IMG/VR virus record: IMGVR_UViG_3300029448_000332
Span: 1-27,528 of that record
Length of the DNA: 27,528 bases
Direction: 5' to 3' (one strand)
From: a virus
In this document: one piece after another, positions 717 through 7,998 of the stretch
Numbering within the stretch: the stretch's first letter is position 1
How the letters are laid out: each line of letters starts with the position of its first letter
Notes under the pieces: model-generated
The model's database searches: none
What the model was told of the DNA's origin: nothing
Seen by the model: only the letters and a program-made list of their open reading frames with translations
Translations under genes and position numbers: made by a program

Positions 717-732
717 ACGTTATATATATATG
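717..732 (+). promoter_or_regulatory. ACGTTATATA late motif before the protease gene
   Basis: ACGTTATATATATATG runs into the ATG at 730; the A of ACG is 13 nt before the start codon. The same motif and spacing occur at 1852, 5581 and 19291, and the motif with longer spacing at 21508. It is probably a phage late promoter (the TATATA as the -7/-10 box, giving a nearly leaderless mRNA) or a translation-initiation element. Confidence 0.55.
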
Positions 733-1362
733 AAAATTATAGAGCTAATTATAGACGAGACAGACGAGTACAGCGGCGTTGACGCCATAAGTCTAGTCGA
801 ATACCCAGCCATTGAGGAAAACTGGGTGGCGTTAAATAAAAACAATAAGGAATATAAATTTAAGTCTGTAGACGACGACAAACGTATACTTATGGGTGCG
901 CTTTTAGTGCCTAACAAAATGATATATCGTAAAGACGGCGACGAAGAGTATTACATACACTTTACAAAAGAGACTGTAAAAAAGGCTAGCGAGTTATACT
1001 TACAAAGAGGCAATACTAACAACGCAACCTACGAGCATATAAAAGAGGTCGACGGCGTTTCACTAGTCGAAAGCTGGATAGTCGAAGACAAAGAAAACGA
1101 CAAAAGTAATTTATACGACCTTAATTTGCCTGTGGGTACGTGGGTAGGTGCTGTAAAAGTAAACAACGAAAAACTTTGGGAAATGGCAAAGGTCGACGGA
1201 TCAATAAAAGGCTTTAGCATCGAGGGGTTTTTTGCTGAAAAAGCGCAACGACCAAAAGAGCAAATAAGCGAAGACCTAGCCGCTGAATTGTCGGCAGCTA
1301 AAAAGCTACTAAAAATTAAACAGGCATTACTAGAAATGTCATTAAAAAAAAAACTGAATTAG
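730..1362 (+). CDS. Prohead maturation protease, XkdF-like
   Basis: A 210-aa protein matching the XkdF-type putative phage serine protease family by eye: N-terminal SLVEYPAIEENW, then LMGALLVPNKMIYRKD (54-69), a YEHIKEVDG block with H103, VESWIVED (113-120) with S115, and GTWVGAVKV plus IKGFSIEGFF (159-168) with S163. H103 with S115 or S163 would be the catalytic pair; I cannot decide which serine acts. Expected role is cleavage of the scaffold and head proteins during procapsid maturation. The gene follows the tape measure after a 30-bp gap holding the ACGTTATATA motif and lies upstream of the scaffold and capsid genes. Its 3' end has an A10 run, after which the zero frame stops within three codons while the -1 frame continues into a conserved domain (see 1344-1664). 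Confidence 0.85.
   Translation: MKIIELIIDETDEYSGVDAISLVEYPAIEENWVALNKNNKEYKFKSVDDDKRILMGALLVPNKMIYRKDGDEEYYIHFTKETVKKASELYLQRGNTNNATYEHIKEVDGVSLVESWIVEDKENDKSNLYDLNLPVGTWVGAVKVNNEKLWEMAKVDGSIKGFSIEGFFAEKAQRPKEQISEDLAAELSAAKKLLKIKQALLEMSLKKKLN
1344..1353 (+). other. A10 slippery run at the end of the protease gene
   Basis: Ten A in a row, read TTA AAA AAA AAA CTG AAT TAG in the zero frame. A -1 shift here continues for 103 more codons. A/T runs of nine or more are known sites of RNA polymerase slippage as well as ribosomal slippage (A AAA AAA). A natural or assembly length error of one base is the plain alternative. Confidence 0.6.
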
Positions 1363-1664
1363 AGAGCTACAACGACTACCCACAAAGCGCAGTTAACAAT
1401 GCTAAAAGAGCTTTAAAGTGGGCAGACGAAAACGGCTGGGGTAGCTGCCTAGAGGCAACAGGAAAAAAAAGAGCAAACCAAATAGCTAACAAAGAAAAAC
1501 TAACAGTCGACACTATTAAACGAATGGCAAGTTTTAAAAGACACCAACAGCATAAAGACGTGCCGTATACAGAGGGTTGCGGTGGTCTAGCCTGGGACGC
1601 CTGGGGTGGCAGCTCTGGCGTAAACTGGGCAATTAACAAACTAAAAAAGCTAAACAATGAATAG
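1344..1664 (+). CDS. -1 frame extension of the protease: conserved C-terminal domain
   Basis: The -1 frame is open from the stop at 1317-1319 to the TAG at 1662. It encodes KTELESYNDYPQ, then AVNNAKRALKWADENGWGS, KKRANQIANKE, RMASFKRHQQHKD and GCGGLAWDAWGGSSGVNWA. This domain resembles one I know from C termini of Bacteroidota phage and prophage head proteins (W...G...G..RA.QLA..E..S..TI.RM.SF..H pattern). No usable start codon precedes it: the first in-frame ATG is at 1524, inside the conserved block. It is therefore most likely made as a fusion with the protease (311 aa in total) through slippage on the A10 run. The function of the domain is unknown; it may bind the prohead or limit the protease to it. 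Confidence 0.7.
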   Translation, partial: KKKTELESYNDYPQSAVNNAKRALKWADENGWGSCLEATGKKRANQIANKEKLTVDTIKRMASFKRHQQHKDVPYTEGCGGLAWDAWGGSSGVNWAINKLKKLNNE

Positions 1665-1830
1665 ACGTAAACGCCGAAATAAATATGTAGCTGAAACTGG
1701 TAACAACGCATCGCCTAGAGGCGGTAGTCGAGCTTGCCTGTGTAAAGACGAAAAAACATACAGTATAGACTGTTGCGACGGCTCGCTATGGGCGCAAGGC
1801 ATAGGCAATATAACAGCTGTACGCAGCTAA
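1657..1830 (+). CDS. Small Cys-rich protein of the head region
   Basis: A 57-aa ORF whose ATG overlaps the end of the protease extension by 8 bases. It starts MNRRKRRNKY and carries ACLCKDEKTYSIDCCDGS, followed by LWAQGIGNI. The CxC ... CC arrangement could bind a metal. I recognise a similar short protein (ACLC...Y...CCDG.L.AQGIG) from related Bacteroidota phages, but no function is known to me. The basic N terminus and its place beside the protease and scaffold suggest a minor head or assembly role; this is inference only. Codon use (GAC, AGC, GGC) matches its neighbours. Confidence 0.7.
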   Translation: MNRRKRRNKYVAETGNNASPRGGSRACLCKDEKTYSIDCCDGSLWAQGIGNITAVRS

Positions 1831-1851: not shown

Positions 1852-1867
1852 ACGTTATATATTTATG
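1852..1867 (+). promoter_or_regulatory. ACGTTATATA late motif before the paralog cluster
   Basis: ACGTTATATATTTATG, with the A of ACG 13 nt before the ATG at 1865, preceded by an A-rich stretch. Same motif and spacing as at 717. It would drive the three paralogs, the scaffold and the capsid as one unit ending at the terminator at 4893-4935. Confidence 0.55.
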
Positions 1868-2317
1868 AGTACAGAAAAAGTAGTATTTAAGAAACTGTTT
1901 AAGGACAAAACCAAATTGTCTAAGCATAAAATAAAATTAAGTCTAGCAGACGACTTAAACGACGCTATAAACTTAATTGCACCGTTAATTAAAGACGGCG
2001 AAGAGTACGACGCTAAACTAAGAGACTTAGGTAAGCGTATAGGCGAATTAGCAAACGAGGCTGAAACCACTATAAGTATGGCTAGCGCATTTTTAGGAGT
2101 AGGCTATAATGGCACAGAAAAAGTAGACGAAGTTTTACAAAATGTACGAGTAAAAAGCGAAGAGCTAGGCGTCGACCCAGCAGTAATAGACGGCTTTACT
2201 GAATTAGAAGAGCTAGCGCAAATTGACTACTTTAGAATAAAAGGTATAGAAGACGCATACTGGGAAGACGTTAAGTCTAACACTGATGACTTAAAGGCAA
2301 TAGTAGATAATTTTTAA
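1865..2317 (+). CDS. Paralog 1 of 3: putative internal head protein with scaffold-like peptide
   Basis: A 150-aa, acidic, mostly helical protein. It begins MSTEKVVFKKLF, nearly the same as the starts of the next two genes and like the end of the scaffold protein (TTQNRVFNKIF). A basic stretch follows (KDKTKLSKHK), then KLSLADDLNDAINLI, and near the C-terminal third KSEELGVDPAVI, a block shared with the other two copies (K(S/T)xELG(I/V)DP). Similar single-copy proteins with the ELGVD block occur in capsid regions of related phages, as far as I recall, without known function. Position between protease and scaffold, plus the shared peptide, suggests a protein carried into the prohead. The start is fixed by the late motif just upstream. 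Confidence 0.75.
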   Translation: MSTEKVVFKKLFKDKTKLSKHKIKLSLADDLNDAINLIAPLIKDGEEYDAKLRDLGKRIGELANEAETTISMASAFLGVGYNGTEKVDEVLQNVRVKSEELGVDPAVIDGFTELEELAQIDYFRIKGIEDAYWEDVKSNTDDLKAIVDNF

Positions 2318-2320
2318 ACT

Positions 2321-2764
2321 ATGAGTACAGAAAAAAGAGTATTTAACAAGCTATTCAAGACAGCTAAAAAGGCTGTAGAATTAAAAGTAGTAGACGAATT
2401 AGAGCAAGCCTTAGACTTAGCAAGCGACAGTTACACACACGCTTTTGACGGTTTCCAGTTTATGAATGACATAGAGAGTAGAATTATAGACTTTAGAGCT
2501 GAAATAAACAGGGAAATAAAAGGTTTTTTTAATTCTGGCGAAGTTTTAAAAATTGACGAAAACGTAGAAAATTTACAAAGACTTTTTGACGAATTGATAG
2601 AAAAAACAGACGAATTGGGTATTGATCCTGGAGTTTTATTTCCTAGAATTGAAAGCGCTATGACTATACTTAACCAAGCTGGCACAATAAAAACAGACTT
2701 TAAAGGCGCATACAATAGGGTAGTAGACGAAAGCAATATAGGTTTAATAAATTTTTTAGACTAA
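2321..2764 (+). CDS. Paralog 2 of 3: putative internal head protein with scaffold-like peptide
   Basis: A 147-aa protein starting 3 nt after the stop of paralog 1. N terminus MSTEKRVFNKLFKT is the closest of the three to the scaffold end RVFNKIF. It then has KKAVELKVVDELEQALDLA, matching the KLSLADDL block of copy 1, and a late KTDELGIDPGVL block. The middle is diverged and helical, with no membrane segment. The first 25 bases of the gene are the same as those of paralog 3, while the rest has diverged strongly, so the N-terminal peptide is under special constraint or was copied recently. Function unknown; see the paralog finding. Confidence 0.75.
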   Translation: MSTEKRVFNKLFKTAKKAVELKVVDELEQALDLASDSYTHAFDGFQFMNDIESRIIDFRAEINREIKGFFNSGEVLKIDENVENLQRLFDELIEKTDELGIDPGVLFPRIESAMTILNQAGTIKTDFKGAYNRVVDESNIGLINFLD

Positions 2765-2767
2765 AAT

Positions 2768-3229
2768 ATGAGTACAGAAAAAAGAGTATTTAGTAGAATG
2801 TTTGACGGCGACAAACACGCCGCAAGACTAAGAGCAGAAAAACGCAACTTAAAATTGTCCGCACTTAGCGACATTGAAGACAACCTAGACCGTTTCGACT
2901 ATGCCGAAAGCGACGCAAGCTGGCTAGCTTACGAATGGGGGGACATGATAATGGACGAATATAACGACTTTAAAATGCGTAACAACCTAGACGACTTTGT
3001 AGTAAACGGTAACGTTAGAGACTTAGAAGAGGTCGCTGAAATTATGCGAAACGCATTAAACGACCTAGAGGTAAAAAGCGAAGAGTTAGGCATTGATCCT
3101 AGCGACGTGTACCCAGACTACGAAGACCTAAAACAAAGAGTAGACAACGCCGAGGCTTTAGAAAAAGACGCTAAGGACAAATACTACGAGGTACAGCAAT
3201 ATGCTGGTTACGCAAACTTTTGGAATTAA
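2768..3229 (+). CDS. Paralog 3 of 3: putative internal head protein with scaffold-like peptide
   Basis: A 153-aa acidic protein, 3 nt downstream of paralog 2. It begins MSTEKRVFSRMF, followed by a basic patch (KHAARLRAEKRN), LKLSALSDIEDNLDRF and, in the last third, VKSEELGIDPSDVYPDYE. It shares with the other two copies the N-terminal peptide, a KL.L..(A/L).D(L/I/E) segment and the ELG(I/V)DP block, in the same order and spacing, so the three are tandem duplicates. It is rich in Trp and Tyr compared with the others. A role inside the head or as scaffold helper is inferred; no enzyme motif is visible. Confidence 0.75.
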   Translation: MSTEKRVFSRMFDGDKHAARLRAEKRNLKLSALSDIEDNLDRFDYAESDASWLAYEWGDMIMDEYNDFKMRNNLDDFVVNGNVRDLEEVAEIMRNALNDLEVKSEELGIDPSDVYPDYEDLKQRVDNAEALEKDAKDKYYEVQQYAGYANFWN

Positions 3230-3249
3230 ATAATAAATAAATAATAAAT

Positions 3250-3855
3250 ATGAAAGCAACAGAAATGTTAAAGCAAATAAAAACTTTGCTACGTGCTAGA
3301 GTAGGTCTAGCGCAAATGACACTTGAAGACGGCGAAACAGTTATTGAGGCAGACGCTTTAGAGGCTGGGCAAGCGGTTTTTATTGTTTCCGATGACGAGC
3401 GCATAGCATTGCCAGTAGGCGAGTATACAACCGCAGACGGTCAAGTTATTGTCGTTACCGAAGAGGGTCTAATTGCAGAGGTAAAACTAGGCGTAGAAGA
3501 CTTAGAAGACGACGAAGAGGAAATGGAAAAAGAAAACGAAAAAGAAGAGCTAGAAGAGGTAGTCGTAGAAGACGTGCCAGAGGCAGCAGCCGAAGAGGTG
3601 GCAGCTATTGTAGAGGCGGTAGTCGACGTAATAGCACCAGTCATTGAAGAGGTTAAGGCAGAAATTGAAGAGCTAAAAAAGAAATACGAAAGCGACGAAG
3701 ACAAAAAGGAAAAAATGTCTAGTCAAAAACCAGCTCGTAAGCCAATGAAGCATAACCCAGAGGCTAAAAAAGACGTTAACACTACTTTATATAGTCAAGG
3801 CGCAGATGCGAATACAACACAAAATAGAGTATTCAACAAAATTTTTAATAAATAA
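3250..3855 (+). CDS. Head scaffolding protein
   Basis: A 201-aa protein directly upstream of the major capsid gene, the usual scaffold position. Residues 1-85 look beta-rich (VGLAQMTLEDG, EALEAGQAVFIV-like, LPVGEYTTADGQVIVV), resembling the N-terminal domain of scaffold proteins in flavobacterial phages. Residues about 88-155 are extremely acidic and helical, a probable coiled coil. The tail is basic, with KPMKHNPEAKKD (about 165-176), and ends TTQNRVFNKIFNK (189-201). Short amphipathic or basic C-terminal segments are where many scaffolds bind the coat. The last 11-13 residues match the N termini of the three preceding paralogs. It is expected to be removed by the XkdF-like protease. Confidence 0.8.
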   Translation: MKATEMLKQIKTLLRARVGLAQMTLEDGETVIEADALEAGQAVFIVSDDERIALPVGEYTTADGQVIVVTEEGLIAEVKLGVEDLEDDEEEMEKENEKEELEEVVVEDVPEAAAEEVAAIVEAVVDVIAPVIEEVKAEIEELKKKYESDEDKKEKMSSQKPARKPMKHNPEAKKDVNTTLYSQGADANTTQNRVFNKIFNK

Positions 3856-3881
3856 AAAAAGTACAGTTAAAACTAATTAAA

Positions 3882-4871
3882 ATGAGAAAAACACACTTAC
3901 GTACAATTACTGGTAGCGGCTCTGTCGACACCATTACTACAAGCTATGAAGGGCAATACTTAGGACAAATTATTTCCGCAGCATTGTTATCTGGCGACAC
4001 TATTGAAAAAGGCGGTATTACCGTTAAACCAAATGTAAAATACAAAGAGGTAGTTAAGAAATTAGATACTACAGGTATTGTTACAGATGCTAGCTGCGAC
4101 TTTACAGTTACAGCCGACCAAGTTACATTAAGCGAGCGTATTCTAGAGGTAGAGCCGTTCCAAGTTAACCTACAACTATGTAAAAAGGACTTTTTGAGCG
4201 ACTATCTTGCTTTAGAAATGGGCAACAGCGCATACAAAAATTTGCCTACATCGTTTGCAGACTACATTATGGCGCACGTTGCGGCAAAAGTAGCTGAAAA
4301 CGTTGAAAAGTCTATCTGGGGTGGCGTTGCTGCAACAGACGGCGAGTTTGAAGGTATTACAGTAGCAGCAGCGGCTGACGCTAACGTAAACGACGTACCA
4401 GGCGTAACAGCTACAGCGTTTACAGCTGACAACATTATTGACGAGCTAGGCAAAGTAGTAGACGCAATACCAACAGCAGTATACGGCAAAGAAGACTTAC
4501 ACTTATACCTACCTACTGTAGCGTTCCAAAAGTACGTTAGAGCTTTAGGCGGTTTCGGTGCAATTACAGGCGGTGCTGGTGCAAACGGAGTAGACAACAG
4601 AGGGTCATTATGGTATGACAACGGCGGTCTTACTTTCGAGGGTATCAAAGTATTTAAAACACCTGGTATGCCAGCAGACCACATTGTAGCGGCTGAAAAA
4701 AGCAACCTATTCTTTGGTACAGCGTTACTAGAAGATATGGGACAGACAAGTGCCAAAGTTTTAGATATGGCAGACCTCGACGGTAGCGACAATGTAAGAA
4801 TTGTCCTACGTTATCAGGCTGGCGCACAGTACGGCGTTTCGCAAGACTTAACGCTATACACGTTAGCATAG
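3882..4871 (+). CDS. Major capsid protein
   Basis: A 329-aa protein that follows the scaffold gene and is followed by a strong terminator. Its sequence resembles the HK97-fold major capsid proteins of Bacteroidota siphophages: an N-terminal part with YEGQYLGQIISAALLSGDTI, a central LEVEPFQVNLQLCKKDFLSDYLALEMG block, ADYIMAHVAAKVAENVEKSIW (spine-helix-like), and a C-terminal GMPADHIVAAEKSNLFFGT and RIVLRYQAGAQYGV segment near the end. It forms the head shell. No large N-terminal delta domain is present, in keeping with the separate scaffold gene. Confidence rests on position and family resemblance; I could not run a structure comparison. Confidence 0.85.
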   Translation: MRKTHLRTITGSGSVDTITTSYEGQYLGQIISAALLSGDTIEKGGITVKPNVKYKEVVKKLDTTGIVTDASCDFTVTADQVTLSERILEVEPFQVNLQLCKKDFLSDYLALEMGNSAYKNLPTSFADYIMAHVAAKVAENVEKSIWGGVAATDGEFEGITVAAAADANVNDVPGVTATAFTADNIIDELGKVVDAIPTAVYGKEDLHLYLPTVAFQKYVRALGGFGAITGGAGANGVDNRGSLWYDNGGLTFEGIKVFKTPGMPADHIVAAEKSNLFFGTALLEDMGQTSAKVLDMADLDGSDNVRIVLRYQAGAQYGVSQDLTLYTLA

Positions 4872-5580: not shown

Positions 5581-5596
5581 GCGTTATATATATATG
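5581..5596 (+). promoter_or_regulatory. GCGTTATATA late motif before the portal block
   Basis: GCGTTATATATATATG ending in the ATG at 5594, with 13-nt spacing as at 717, 1852 and 19291. It lies 20 nt after a terminator, which supports a promoter. It also decides the start of the next gene (5594 instead of an upstream in-frame ATG at 5561 that would put the motif and the terminator tail inside the coding region). Confidence 0.6.
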
Positions 5597-6010
5597 AAAG
5601 TTTTAAAGCCGACAACTGACGAGCAAACGTTTTATTTTATACCAAAGGTTTACGACTTGTCTGGGTCTTTATTTTTTAGAGACGACCAAACAAACGAGGT
5701 AGTAGAATACACGCCTACAACGGTAAAGGAAAACGACTTTATTAAAGTTACAGGCGTATTTAATTTAATAGAGGGTCATTTTTACGACCTATCACTAGTT
5801 AACGACTTTGATGTATGGAATGAAAACCTAGACCAATGGCAAGCCGCAAACTATAACTGGGAAGACGCAAAGCATAAAGTTACACAAAGTTTTGACAAAG
5901 TTTTCTGTACGGATCAAACTATAGACCAAAACAGAAATAAAGAGTATACCATAAATAAAGGCGTTTACAAAACAGACGACAGTTTCGACAATGACTATAT
6001 AGTATTATGA
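5594..6010 (+). CDS. Conserved small structural protein upstream of the portal
   Basis: A 138-aa protein starting MKVLKPTTDEQTFYFIPKVYD. It is beta-rich and ends with VFCTDQTI, NKEYTINKGVYKTDDSFDNDYIVL-like sequence. I recall similar short proteins (KVL.P......I.PR.Y...; RGKIFCTDQ) among structural genes of Bacteroidota phages, where their function is not established. It overlaps the portal start by 4 nt (ATGA), so the two are translationally coupled. A minor head, neck or tail component is inferred. The ATG at 5594 was chosen over 5561 because of the late motif and the terminator just upstream. Confidence 0.7.
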   Translation: MKVLKPTTDEQTFYFIPKVYDLSGSLFFRDDQTNEVVEYTPTTVKENDFIKVTGVFNLIEGHFYDLSLVNDFDVWNENLDQWQAANYNWEDAKHKVTQSFDKVFCTDQTIDQNRNKEYTINKGVYKTDDSFDNDYIVL

Positions 6011-7998
6011 AAAAAACCAATAAAAAACCGAGTAGCAATACAGGGTTAAAATTTATTAACCTAAACACGTATACCTCGCCAGAAATTATAGAAGACAAAA
6101 ACCAAAGCTGGGTTTCGTATGGCTCTGACAATGACTACTACGGTTATTTAAATGACTTATTTAATGGCTCGCCTACAAATTCGGCAGCTATTAACGGAAT
6201 AGCACAGCTTATTGCTGGTCGAGGCGTAGACGCTACAGACAGCTCGAAAAACCCAAACGGTTACGCTGTAATGAAAAAGCTATTTACAGACGAATGTTTG
6301 CACAGGGTAGCTATTGACTTAAAACTATTCGGACAGGCAAGCGTCCAGGTTATTTACAATGAAGAGCGCACACAAATAGTACAAGTCGAGCATTTTCCTA
6401 TAGAGACGCTTAGACCAGAGCGTTGCAACGAAGACGGCGAAATTGAGGTTTACTATTACTCTAACGACTGGCAAGACGTAAAAAACAAAAGCGAATTAAA
6501 ACGTATACCAGCTTTCGGAATGTCAACAGAGCCTATAGAAATACTATGTATTAAACCCTACAAGCCTGGCTTTTATTATTTTTCGCCACCAGACTACCAA
6601 GGCGCATGTCAATATATAGAAATGGAAACCGAAATTTCAAATTTTCACTTAAACAGCTTGCTAAACGGAATGTCGCCAAGTCTTTTAATGAATATGAATA
6701 GCGGCATACCAGACGAAGAGACGCAAAGGGAAATAGAACAAAAAATTTATCAAAAATATACTGGCACGTCAAATAGTGGTCGCATAATTTTAGCCTTTAA
6801 TAATGGTGCTGAAGAGCAAGCGACTATAGAGACGGTGCAACTATCGGACGCACACCAACAATACCAGTTTTTAAGTAGTGAAAGCGGCTTGAAAATTTTG
6901 GTAGGTCATAGGATTACTAGTCCGTTATTACTAGGTATTAAAAGCGACGGTAACGGTTTTTCGTCAAATGCCGACGAGCTAAAAAACAGCTCTATTTTAT
7001 TCGACAATACAGTAATTAGACCGTTTCAAGACTTAATTTTGAAAGCGTTTGACACTATACTAGCATTTAACGACGTTAGCTTAAACCTATATATTAAGAC
7101 ACTACAGCCGCTAGAGTTTGTAGACTTAGAAAACGCTAACACAAAAGAAGAGGTCGAAGAGCAAACAGGGCAAAAATTATCTTTAAAAGCTGTAGAAATA
7201 GACGGAATAGTAGCGTATAGCACAAAAGAAGAGGCGGAAAAAGCTGCAAAAGAAAAAGGCTGCGGCGGACACCACGAAATGGAAAACGACGGCGTTACAT
7301 ATTATATGCCATGCGAAAGCCACGACTTAAAAGCACCCTGTTGGGACGGTTACGAGCAAATAGGCACAAAAATAAAAGACGGCAAAGAAGTGCCAAACTG
7401 TGTGCCTATGTCGGCAGCGGACGAAATTCGCCAAAAACTTTATGAAAGGCTTATGGAAATAGGCGAAGACGAAGACCTAGAAAACTACGACTTAATAGAC
7501 GCTAGACCAGCAAACGAATACGACGCAGACGTAAGAGACGGTTTAAACCTAGCTAGCGTAGTACGTAGCACACCTAGTAAAAAAAGCGAGCAAGACACGT
7601 TAATTTTAAAAGTGCGTTATGCTTATATGGGTAACAACAACCCACAGCGAGAGTTTTGTAAGAAAATGTGGAATGCTAAAAAAGTATACCGAGTAGAGGA
7701 CTTAGACAGCGACAACCCAAACTATAACGGAAACGCTAACGGCGTAAACCCAGGCTTAGGCATAGACGGTGCGGACAATTACAATATATTTTTATATAAA
7801 GGCGGCGCAAACTGTAGGCATTATTTCGAGCGTAGAACGTATTTAAGAAAAAACAACAAAAAAATTACAGTTACAGAGGCTATTAAGAAAATTAACGAGC
7901 TTGACCCTAGCTTACGCAAAGAGGCACGCATTGTTAAAAACCCAAAAGAGGTAGCTATGTACCCAGCAGACATGCCAAACAACGGTTATTACAGATAA
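6007..7998 (+). CDS. Portal protein with Cys/His-rich and head-morphogenesis-like C-terminal extension
   Basis: A 663-aa protein. Residues 1 to about 390 are the portal core of the Bacteroidota siphophage type: SWVSYGSDNDYYGYLNDLFNGSP, NSAAINGIAQLIAGRG, then LKLFGQASVQVIY, a stem helix region and HRITSPLLLGIKSDGNGFSSN. Residues about 415-467 hold a Cys/His-rich stretch (C419, H422, H423, C436, H439, C445, C465) that may bind metal, with PCWDGYEQIGTK and PNCVP motifs seen in other phage head proteins. Residues about 520-663 form another domain with REFCKKM (C551), VYRVEDLD, GADNYNIFLYKGGANCRHYFERRTY (C603), and a PADMPNNGYYR end. The portal forms the dodecameric vertex through which DNA passes. 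The extension may act in head morphogenesis; similar sequence occurs at portal C termini in relatives, so the fusion is probably not unique. Confidence 0.87.
   Translation: MKKTNKKPSSNTGLKFINLNTYTSPEIIEDKNQSWVSYGSDNDYYGYLNDLFNGSPTNSAAINGIAQLIAGRGVDATDSSKNPNGYAVMKKLFTDECLHRVAIDLKLFGQASVQVIYNEERTQIVQVEHFPIETLRPERCNEDGEIEVYYYSNDWQDVKNKSELKRIPAFGMSTEPIEILCIKPYKPGFYYFSPPDYQGACQYIEMETEISNFHLNSLLNGMSPSLLMNMNSGIPDEETQREIEQKIYQKYTGTSNSGRIILAFNNGAEEQATIETVQLSDAHQQYQFLSSESGLKILVGHRITSPLLLGIKSDGNGFSSNADELKNSSILFDNTVIRPFQDLILKAFDTILAFNDVSLNLYIKTLQPLEFVDLENANTKEEVEEQTGQKLSLKAVEIDGIVAYSTKEEAEKAAKEKGCGGHHEMENDGVTYYMPCESHDLKAPCWDGYEQIGTKIKDGKEVPNCVPMSAADEIRQKLYERLMEIGEDEDLENYDLIDARPANEYDADVRDGLNLASVVRSTPSKKSEQDTLILKVRYAYMGNNNPQREFCKKMWNAKKVYRVEDLDSDNPNYNGNANGVNPGLGIDGADNYNIFLYKGGANCRHYFERRTYLRKNNKKITVTEAIKKINELDPSLRKEARIVKNPKEVAMYPADMPNNGYYR

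Follow-up and report, generated by a model that had tools for sequence, protein, structure and literature searches.

Encapsulins load cargo into an HK97-fold shell by means of a short terminal peptide, and prohead cleavage in phages of the T4 type follows x-x-E type sites. At the internal-protein loci of the T-even phages the internal proteins have only the leader in common (PMC3012670, PMC12373910), and DarA of phage P1 (PMC12810830) and several giant-phage proteins (PMC5694885) have an N-terminal part removed by the prohead protease. In 80alpha, the C-terminal helix and hook (RIIK) of the scaffold bind the coat, as established by cryo-electron microscopy and mutation, and CpmB of SaPI1 has a matching motif for the same coat site (PMC5644958). 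Here we compare the literature on these comparable systems (T4, SPN3US, P1 and 80alpha/SaPI1) with a head-gene locus in the IMG/VR virus record IMGVR_UViG_3300029448_000332, the whole 27.5 kb of which (27,528 nucleotides) we call the window. In this locus, three consecutive genes begin with a peptide, RVFxKLF, that resembles the C-terminal end of the adjoining putative scaffold protein; we refer to this peptide as the tag, to the proteins that carry it as tagged or cargo proteins, and to the rest of each protein as its body. We consider it likely that the products of the tagged genes are internal head proteins whose precursors carry a leader of two parts, a mimic of the scaffold tail followed by a protease site. 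In the open-access literature we found no description of a set like this one.

RESULTS

The tag is confined to scaffold ends and the starts of adjoining genes

The gene order in the window runs from an S78_2 protease through a small Cys-rich open reading frame (ORF) and three tagged genes to the scaffold and then the coat gene, with the portal gene further on. All four peptides were present where the original prediction had placed them, at the starts of the three tagged ORFs and at the end of the scaffold ORF, and these are the only genes of the window with VF-x-[KR]-[LIM]-F at a protein terminus. The tagged genes do lie between the protease and scaffold genes, as had been claimed, but not exactly so, since the Cys-rich ORF is also there, ahead of the first of them. 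The features of the locus are as follows.

730..1362, + strand: prohead protease (Peptidase_S78_2, XkdF-like; Pfam PF14550, E=1.1e-14; PHROG head maturation protease/protease matches)
850..873, + strand: protease segment EYKFKSVD, directly ahead of the catalytic core; corresponds to the second block in cargo leaders
1657..1830, + strand: small Cys-rich ORF (ASPRGGSRACLCKDEKTYSIDCCDGSLWAQGIG), kept in relatives with and without cargo
1865..2317, + strand: tagged protein 1 (slot A)
1865..1900, + strand: N-terminal tag MSTEKVVFKKLF of tagged protein 1
1928..1942, + strand: second block KIKLS of tagged protein 1, candidate protease site
2321..2764, + strand: tagged protein 2
2321..2356, + strand: N-terminal tag MSTEKRVFNKLF of tagged protein 2
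2372..2386, + strand: second block AVELK of tagged protein 2, candidate protease site
2768..3229, + strand: tagged protein 3 (slot B tag)
2768..2803, + strand: N-terminal tag MSTEKRVFSRMF of tagged protein 3
2846..2860, + strand: second block NLKLS of tagged protein 3, candidate protease site
3250..3855, + strand: putative scaffold protein, ending TTQNRVFNKIFNK (position; AlphaFold2 model; homology to the C-terminal part of the P12024L fusion)
3298..3315, + strand: scaffold N-terminal block RVGLAQ, corresponding weakly to the second block in cargo
3826..3852, + strand: scaffold C-terminal peptide RVFNKIFNK, residues 190-199, predicted isolated helix (AlphaFold2 model)
3882..4871, + strand: predicted major capsid protein (MCP; position, conservation, PHROG match)

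That ORF 3250-3855 encodes the scaffold is suggested by its position directly upstream of the coat gene, by a predicted architecture with a coiled coil and a terminal helix, and by fusion to the protease in relatives, as in Nonlabens phage P12024L. Its AlphaFold2 model, of low confidence (pLDDT 62), comprises an N-terminal helix, a small beta domain, an acidic linker, the coiled coil and a C-terminal helix; the C terminus was modelled as an isolated helix, and the tag is also predicted to be helical.

A search with the coat protein gave 80 loci, and scaffold profile searches supplied more distant relatives; from among the matches listed, 231 distinct loci were analysed. One to four tagged genes were found between protease and scaffold in 109 of the 181 loci that have both an S78_2-type prohead protease and a scaffold; in the other 72 there were none. 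The scaffold is present throughout. Cargo, being missing from these 72 loci, is dispensable for the head type. The tagged proteins are about 95-180 amino acids long, and our cargo set holds 216 of them from 134 loci; ORF 3798-4190 of locus L154, a detached C-terminal part of the protease, was left among the 216 and should hardly affect the averages.

A restriction of RVFxKLF, which the original prediction had suggested looking for, was borne out by a DNA scan of whole records, in which R-V-F-x-[KR]-[LIM]-F occurred in 15 of 20 records, nearly always at scaffold ends and the starts of adjoining genes, and a reversed control pattern matched once in total. Relatives with a coat 70-95% identical, where the region was covered, had the motif where the scaffold ends and where genes in the protease-scaffold interval begin. 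Those with a coat about 56% identical keep a related scaffold end, DRVLARMNK, and have no cargo genes, which argues that the peptide is primarily the scaffold's and is borne by cargo in some lineages only.

These loci form a large, uncultured, aquatic group of phages whose hosts are probably Bacteroidota. The best hint of the host phylum is a single contig (L299) from a metagenome-assembled genome named 'Bacteroidetes bacterium', found in a coat search, which has a coat relative, the protease, the scaffold and two tagged genes; a scaffold search of bacterial genomes gave no match. Two tagged proteins queried against a phage collection had no match, and no cultured relative with tagged genes was found there; head relatives in that collection were P12024L/S only, plus a weak protease match in a Rhizobium phage. 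Locus L031 (record G012), on a contig of 28787 bases, has its tag sites at 194-1096 and its scaffold end at 27794; it is thus split over the two ends of the contig, as would be expected of a genome that is circular or permuted.

Tag and scaffold tail match at the protein level

The tag varies by lineage and tends to follow the local scaffold end, as in the tail/tag pairs DRVLTKMY/NVITKMYAG, DSVLNKIS/KSVGNKLF, DTVLSKIA/NNVTSKLF and ERVFNQLF/ERIYAQLS. Scored as the best 8-residue BLOSUM62 match between a tag and its own scaffold tail, cargo gave a mean of 18.2, compared with 11.1 for shuffled tags, 7.9 for the starts of other genes and 7.9 for tags against the ends of other proteins. Scores of 20 or more were reached by 38% of the cargo, 3% of the shuffled tags and 0.7% of the other genes. 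By permutation, a tag is fitted better by its own scaffold tail than by those of other lineages (P=0.004 for 24 lineages and P=0.0009 for 40), a matching that we grade as moderate because the finer lineages are related to each other.

Tail and tags encode the same residues with other codons (CTG for Leu at 22/37 positions in cargo and at 0/17 in the scaffold), and no tag of the window matches the scaffold tail in DNA over more than 8 bases; the resemblance is therefore at the protein level, and the codon differences rule out recent DNA copying between the two. Genes 2 and 3 of the window share 25 identical bases in their tags, and tag codon use is biased, as could be expected if the shared start were mainly a recombination landing pad or a recent gene-conversion tract that allows cassettes to be exchanged, has no targeting role and resembles the scaffold by coincidence. 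We regard this as extremely improbable, given the synonymous codon differences just described and a tail-tag likeness that exceeds the other-gene control in 24/24 lineages and the shuffle in 23/24. The earlier claim of a shared coat-binding address peptide gains strong comparative support from its confined placement, its match over 24 scaffold lineages and its separability from the bodies, with the coat as its presumed partner.

A second leader block resembles a segment of the prohead protease

The leader as first described was incomplete, as a second conserved block (K/H-x-V-E-L-A) after the tag had been missed. Nearly all cargo proteins have K/H-x-[VI]-x-L-[ASG] there; the loose form of the pattern occurs in 95% of cargo versus 18% of random windows and the strict form in 63% versus 1%. 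The block resembles the segment just ahead of the catalytic core in the phage's own protease, which reads KKHEVELKEVD in many relatives, compared with ASHEVELALVD in cargo, and the two co-vary by lineage (P=0.005, 0.0008 and 0.00002 with 7, 18 and 32 lineages, respectively). The protease-scaffold fusion of P12024L has a similar sequence, AAVKLGEV, between its two parts. From these likenesses we infer that the prohead protease would cut cargo at the second block and itself at the matching segment, although a docking site is also conceivable. With a tag like the scaffold tail and a block like the protease segment, the leader seems to combine two signals, first a shell-binding helix like that of the scaffold and then a protease site.

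Co-variation of the block with the protease is clearer than that of the tag with the scaffold tail, and the tagged genes adjoin the protease gene. Both facts would suit an arrangement in which not the coat but the protease or the portal is the partner of the shared helix and second block, the proteins then regulating or recruiting the protease as decoy substrates or inhibitors. We consider this very unlikely, since it would leave the likeness of the tag to the scaffold C terminus, the hypervariable bodies and the fast turnover of cassettes unexplained.

In the window (1342-1664), the protease ORF stops at a run of ten A, and the -1 frame runs on into a conserved domain (LESYNDYPQSAVNNAKRALKW...WGGSSGVNWAINKLKK). 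The A run and the split ORF are also found in L001; L003, L018 and L022 have a single continuous ORF of 311 amino acids, and in others the domain is lost. A programmed -1 frameshift or slippage at the A run is possible. In L062 a GIY-YIG endonuclease-like gene (MGFVYLWRNVKSNKKYIGSHKG; judged by eye) is inserted at 2963-3574, right ahead of the protease gene. The protein of window ORF 1657-1830 has the pattern CLCKDxxxYSxxCCDGSLWAQGIG and lies beside the protease in many relatives, cargo-less ones included.

The bodies form one diverged family and are exchanged behind the tags

The bodies are strongly diverged, as had been noticed, but they are not unrelated apart from the tag: gene 1865 matched gene 2768 at E=1e-4 and gene 2321 matched gene 2768 at E=2e-7, which places them in one family, while direct comparison of 1865 with 2321 gave no match. 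Among 135 family members, conservation of at least 90% was seen only at M1, the Leu of the second block and an L-G pair, and no stretch of the cargo is conserved enough for a profile. The late ELG(I/V)DP block reported earlier is confirmed; apart from it, no part of the bodies is near-invariant. The AlphaFold2 model of gene 2768 is all-helical (pLDDT 83.5) and had no relative in the PDB at E<=0.001. Scattered weak coiled-coil matches in Pfam, PHROGs, NCBIfam, PADLOC and the PDB were rejected as indications of payload identity, being chance matches for helical proteins.

A common N-terminal leader precedes otherwise diverse proteins, the tag keeping 8-12 of 12 residues within groups while the bodies are often down to 12-40%. 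Bodies up to 85% identical also occur behind different lineage tags, with the switch at or near the second block; in L231 and L283, for example, the bodies are 85% and the tags 36% identical, and tagged protein 3 of the window joins a slot B tag to a body that is carried behind the slot C tag (MNTNK) in L001 and L004. In the pairs L017/L021, L018/L022 and L018/L023, coat and scaffold are 99-100% identical and the whole body of one slot differs, while its tag keeps 10-12 of 12 residues (for L017/L021, 100% in the MCP, 32% in the slot C body and 11/12 in the tag).

The precedent of 80alpha and CpmB makes docking by tail mimicry plausible and at the same time makes a serious rival of accessory or competing scaffolds, which would use the shared helix to bind the coat, influence the geometry of the shell or assembly at the portal vertex, and be lost or degraded before packaging, like SaPI1 CpmB versus the 80alpha scaffold protein (SP). 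A second protein with the scaffold's terminal coat-binding motif has a direct precedent there (RIIK; PMC5644958), the bodies of the window's group are acidic and helical like many scaffolds, and the genes adjoin the scaffold gene; yet there are 0-4 copies within one head type, with none in 72/181 loci, and the second block resembles the pre-core segment of the protease. Moreover, replacement of bodies is seen even among phages whose coat and scaffold are identical, which is unexpected for factors of shell geometry. Their variable number, their absence from many relatives and this replacement at identical shells favour payload over shell-geometry factors, and we judge the accessory-scaffold explanation to be unlikely.

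Additional features of the window

A motif, CGTTATATAT[AT]TATG, at 718-732, 1853-1867 and 5582-5596 runs into the start codons of three late genes, the first tagged gene among them. It has 4 matches with at most one mismatch versus 0.01 expected, and is possibly a promoter or translation signal. The portal protein (6007-7998) is lengthened considerably at its C terminus by a part that contains Cys/His-rich stretches (DUF3721-like match).

DISCUSSION

The anatomy of the leader, the distribution of the tagged genes, the modularity of tag and body, and the turnover of the bodies are seen directly in the loci. If the tagged proteins are internal head proteins, RVFxKLF would be an amphipathic helix that copies the scaffold's C-terminal shell-binding helix and docks on the same coat-protein surface as the scaffold tail, so that the protein would be enclosed as the prohead forms. 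The S78_2 prohead protease of the same phage would recognise the x-V-E-L-A type block and most likely cut there, releasing the body within the head. Being hypervariable all-helical cassettes, the bodies may then be injected with the DNA and meet variable host targets. Hypervariable cassette exchange fits factors that enter with the DNA and face variable targets in the host, as T4 internal proteins do; ejection and anti-host action form the weakest step of the proposal, which we offer tentatively, at somewhat less than an even chance.

The T4 tag directs proteins to the core, and we know of no report that it copies the end of the scaffold, as the tag described here does. The candidate site, of the V-x-L-A type, is unlike the x-x-E of T4; the bodies, again unlike those of T4, form one helical family with an ELG motif, and packaging is here presumed. 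Encapsulins differ from the tagged set in not being phages and in having neither a scaffold nor proteolytic removal. T4 IPI, IPII and IPIII and the tagged set are alike in consisting of several small, dispensable, highly diverse proteins that share little beyond an N-terminal leader (PMC3012670, PMC12373910, PMC5694885). A prohead protease in the head module and bodies that vary between close relatives are further common points. No sequence relation to the T4 internal proteins was found, with no Pfam or PHROG relative and no PDB fold match at E<=0.001, and our best reading, by analogy, is that the tagged proteins may work like them. With 80alpha SP and SaPI1 CpmB the tagged set has in common a second protein bearing the scaffold's terminal motif, basic and hydrophobic, coat binding being presumed here. 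SP and CpmB both have the motif at the C terminus, and CpmB, a competing scaffold encoded by a satellite, is expelled; unlike CpmB, the tagged proteins have the motif at the N terminus with a protease-like block next, and are the phage's own hypervariable multi-copy family. DarA and Hdf of P1 (PMC12810830) and the giant-phage ejection proteins (PMC5694885) are head-targeted, as proposed for the tagged set; they are much larger and from different phages, and no scaffold-mimicking tag is reported for them in the excerpts considered.

Several points weigh against tagged proteins as internal head proteins. The patterns were defined after the sequences had been seen, and 57 of the 216 cargo proteins have a tag without the core pattern. 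Paralogs without the peptide beside a scaffold that keeps it, which the original prediction had named as evidence to the contrary, are approached in some slots with degenerate tags (MNTNKTVLSI..., MKTTKELIIADI...). Co-variation of tail and tag was not significant with only 10 deep lineages (P=0.08), the finer lineages not being independent, and strong co-evolution of the two was set aside in favour of a moderate one. The strict second block occurs in only about one quarter of scaffold N termini, where the counterpart block showed no significant lineage co-variation with cargo (P=0.085 to 0.23); a scaffold cleavage site co-varying with cargo was rejected on this ground, and we limit the claim for the block to protease and cargo. 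With a pI near 4.1, the bodies of the window's group are very acidic and so differ from internal proteins of the basic, DNA-associated kind, though those from freshwater are often basic, and searches of Pfam, PHROGs, NCBIfam and PADLOC matched the bodies to no known domain or anti-defence protein. Finally, coat docking, cleavage, packaging and ejection are steps that we infer from sequence.

We see an even chance that a two-signal leader, composed of the scaffold tail and the protease pre-core segment, loads hypervariable payloads whose exchangeable slots meet host defences across a very large, almost uncultured aquatic group of phages. The addressing of head-loaded factors outside T4, by copying the coat-binding end of the scaffold, becomes testable, and short tags might be of use for bringing foreign proteins into the head of a phage. 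A scaffold tail copied at the start of a protein and followed by a protease-like block would give a sequence rule for internal head proteins in uncultured phages, and points to a large pool of uncharacterised, probably injected proteins.
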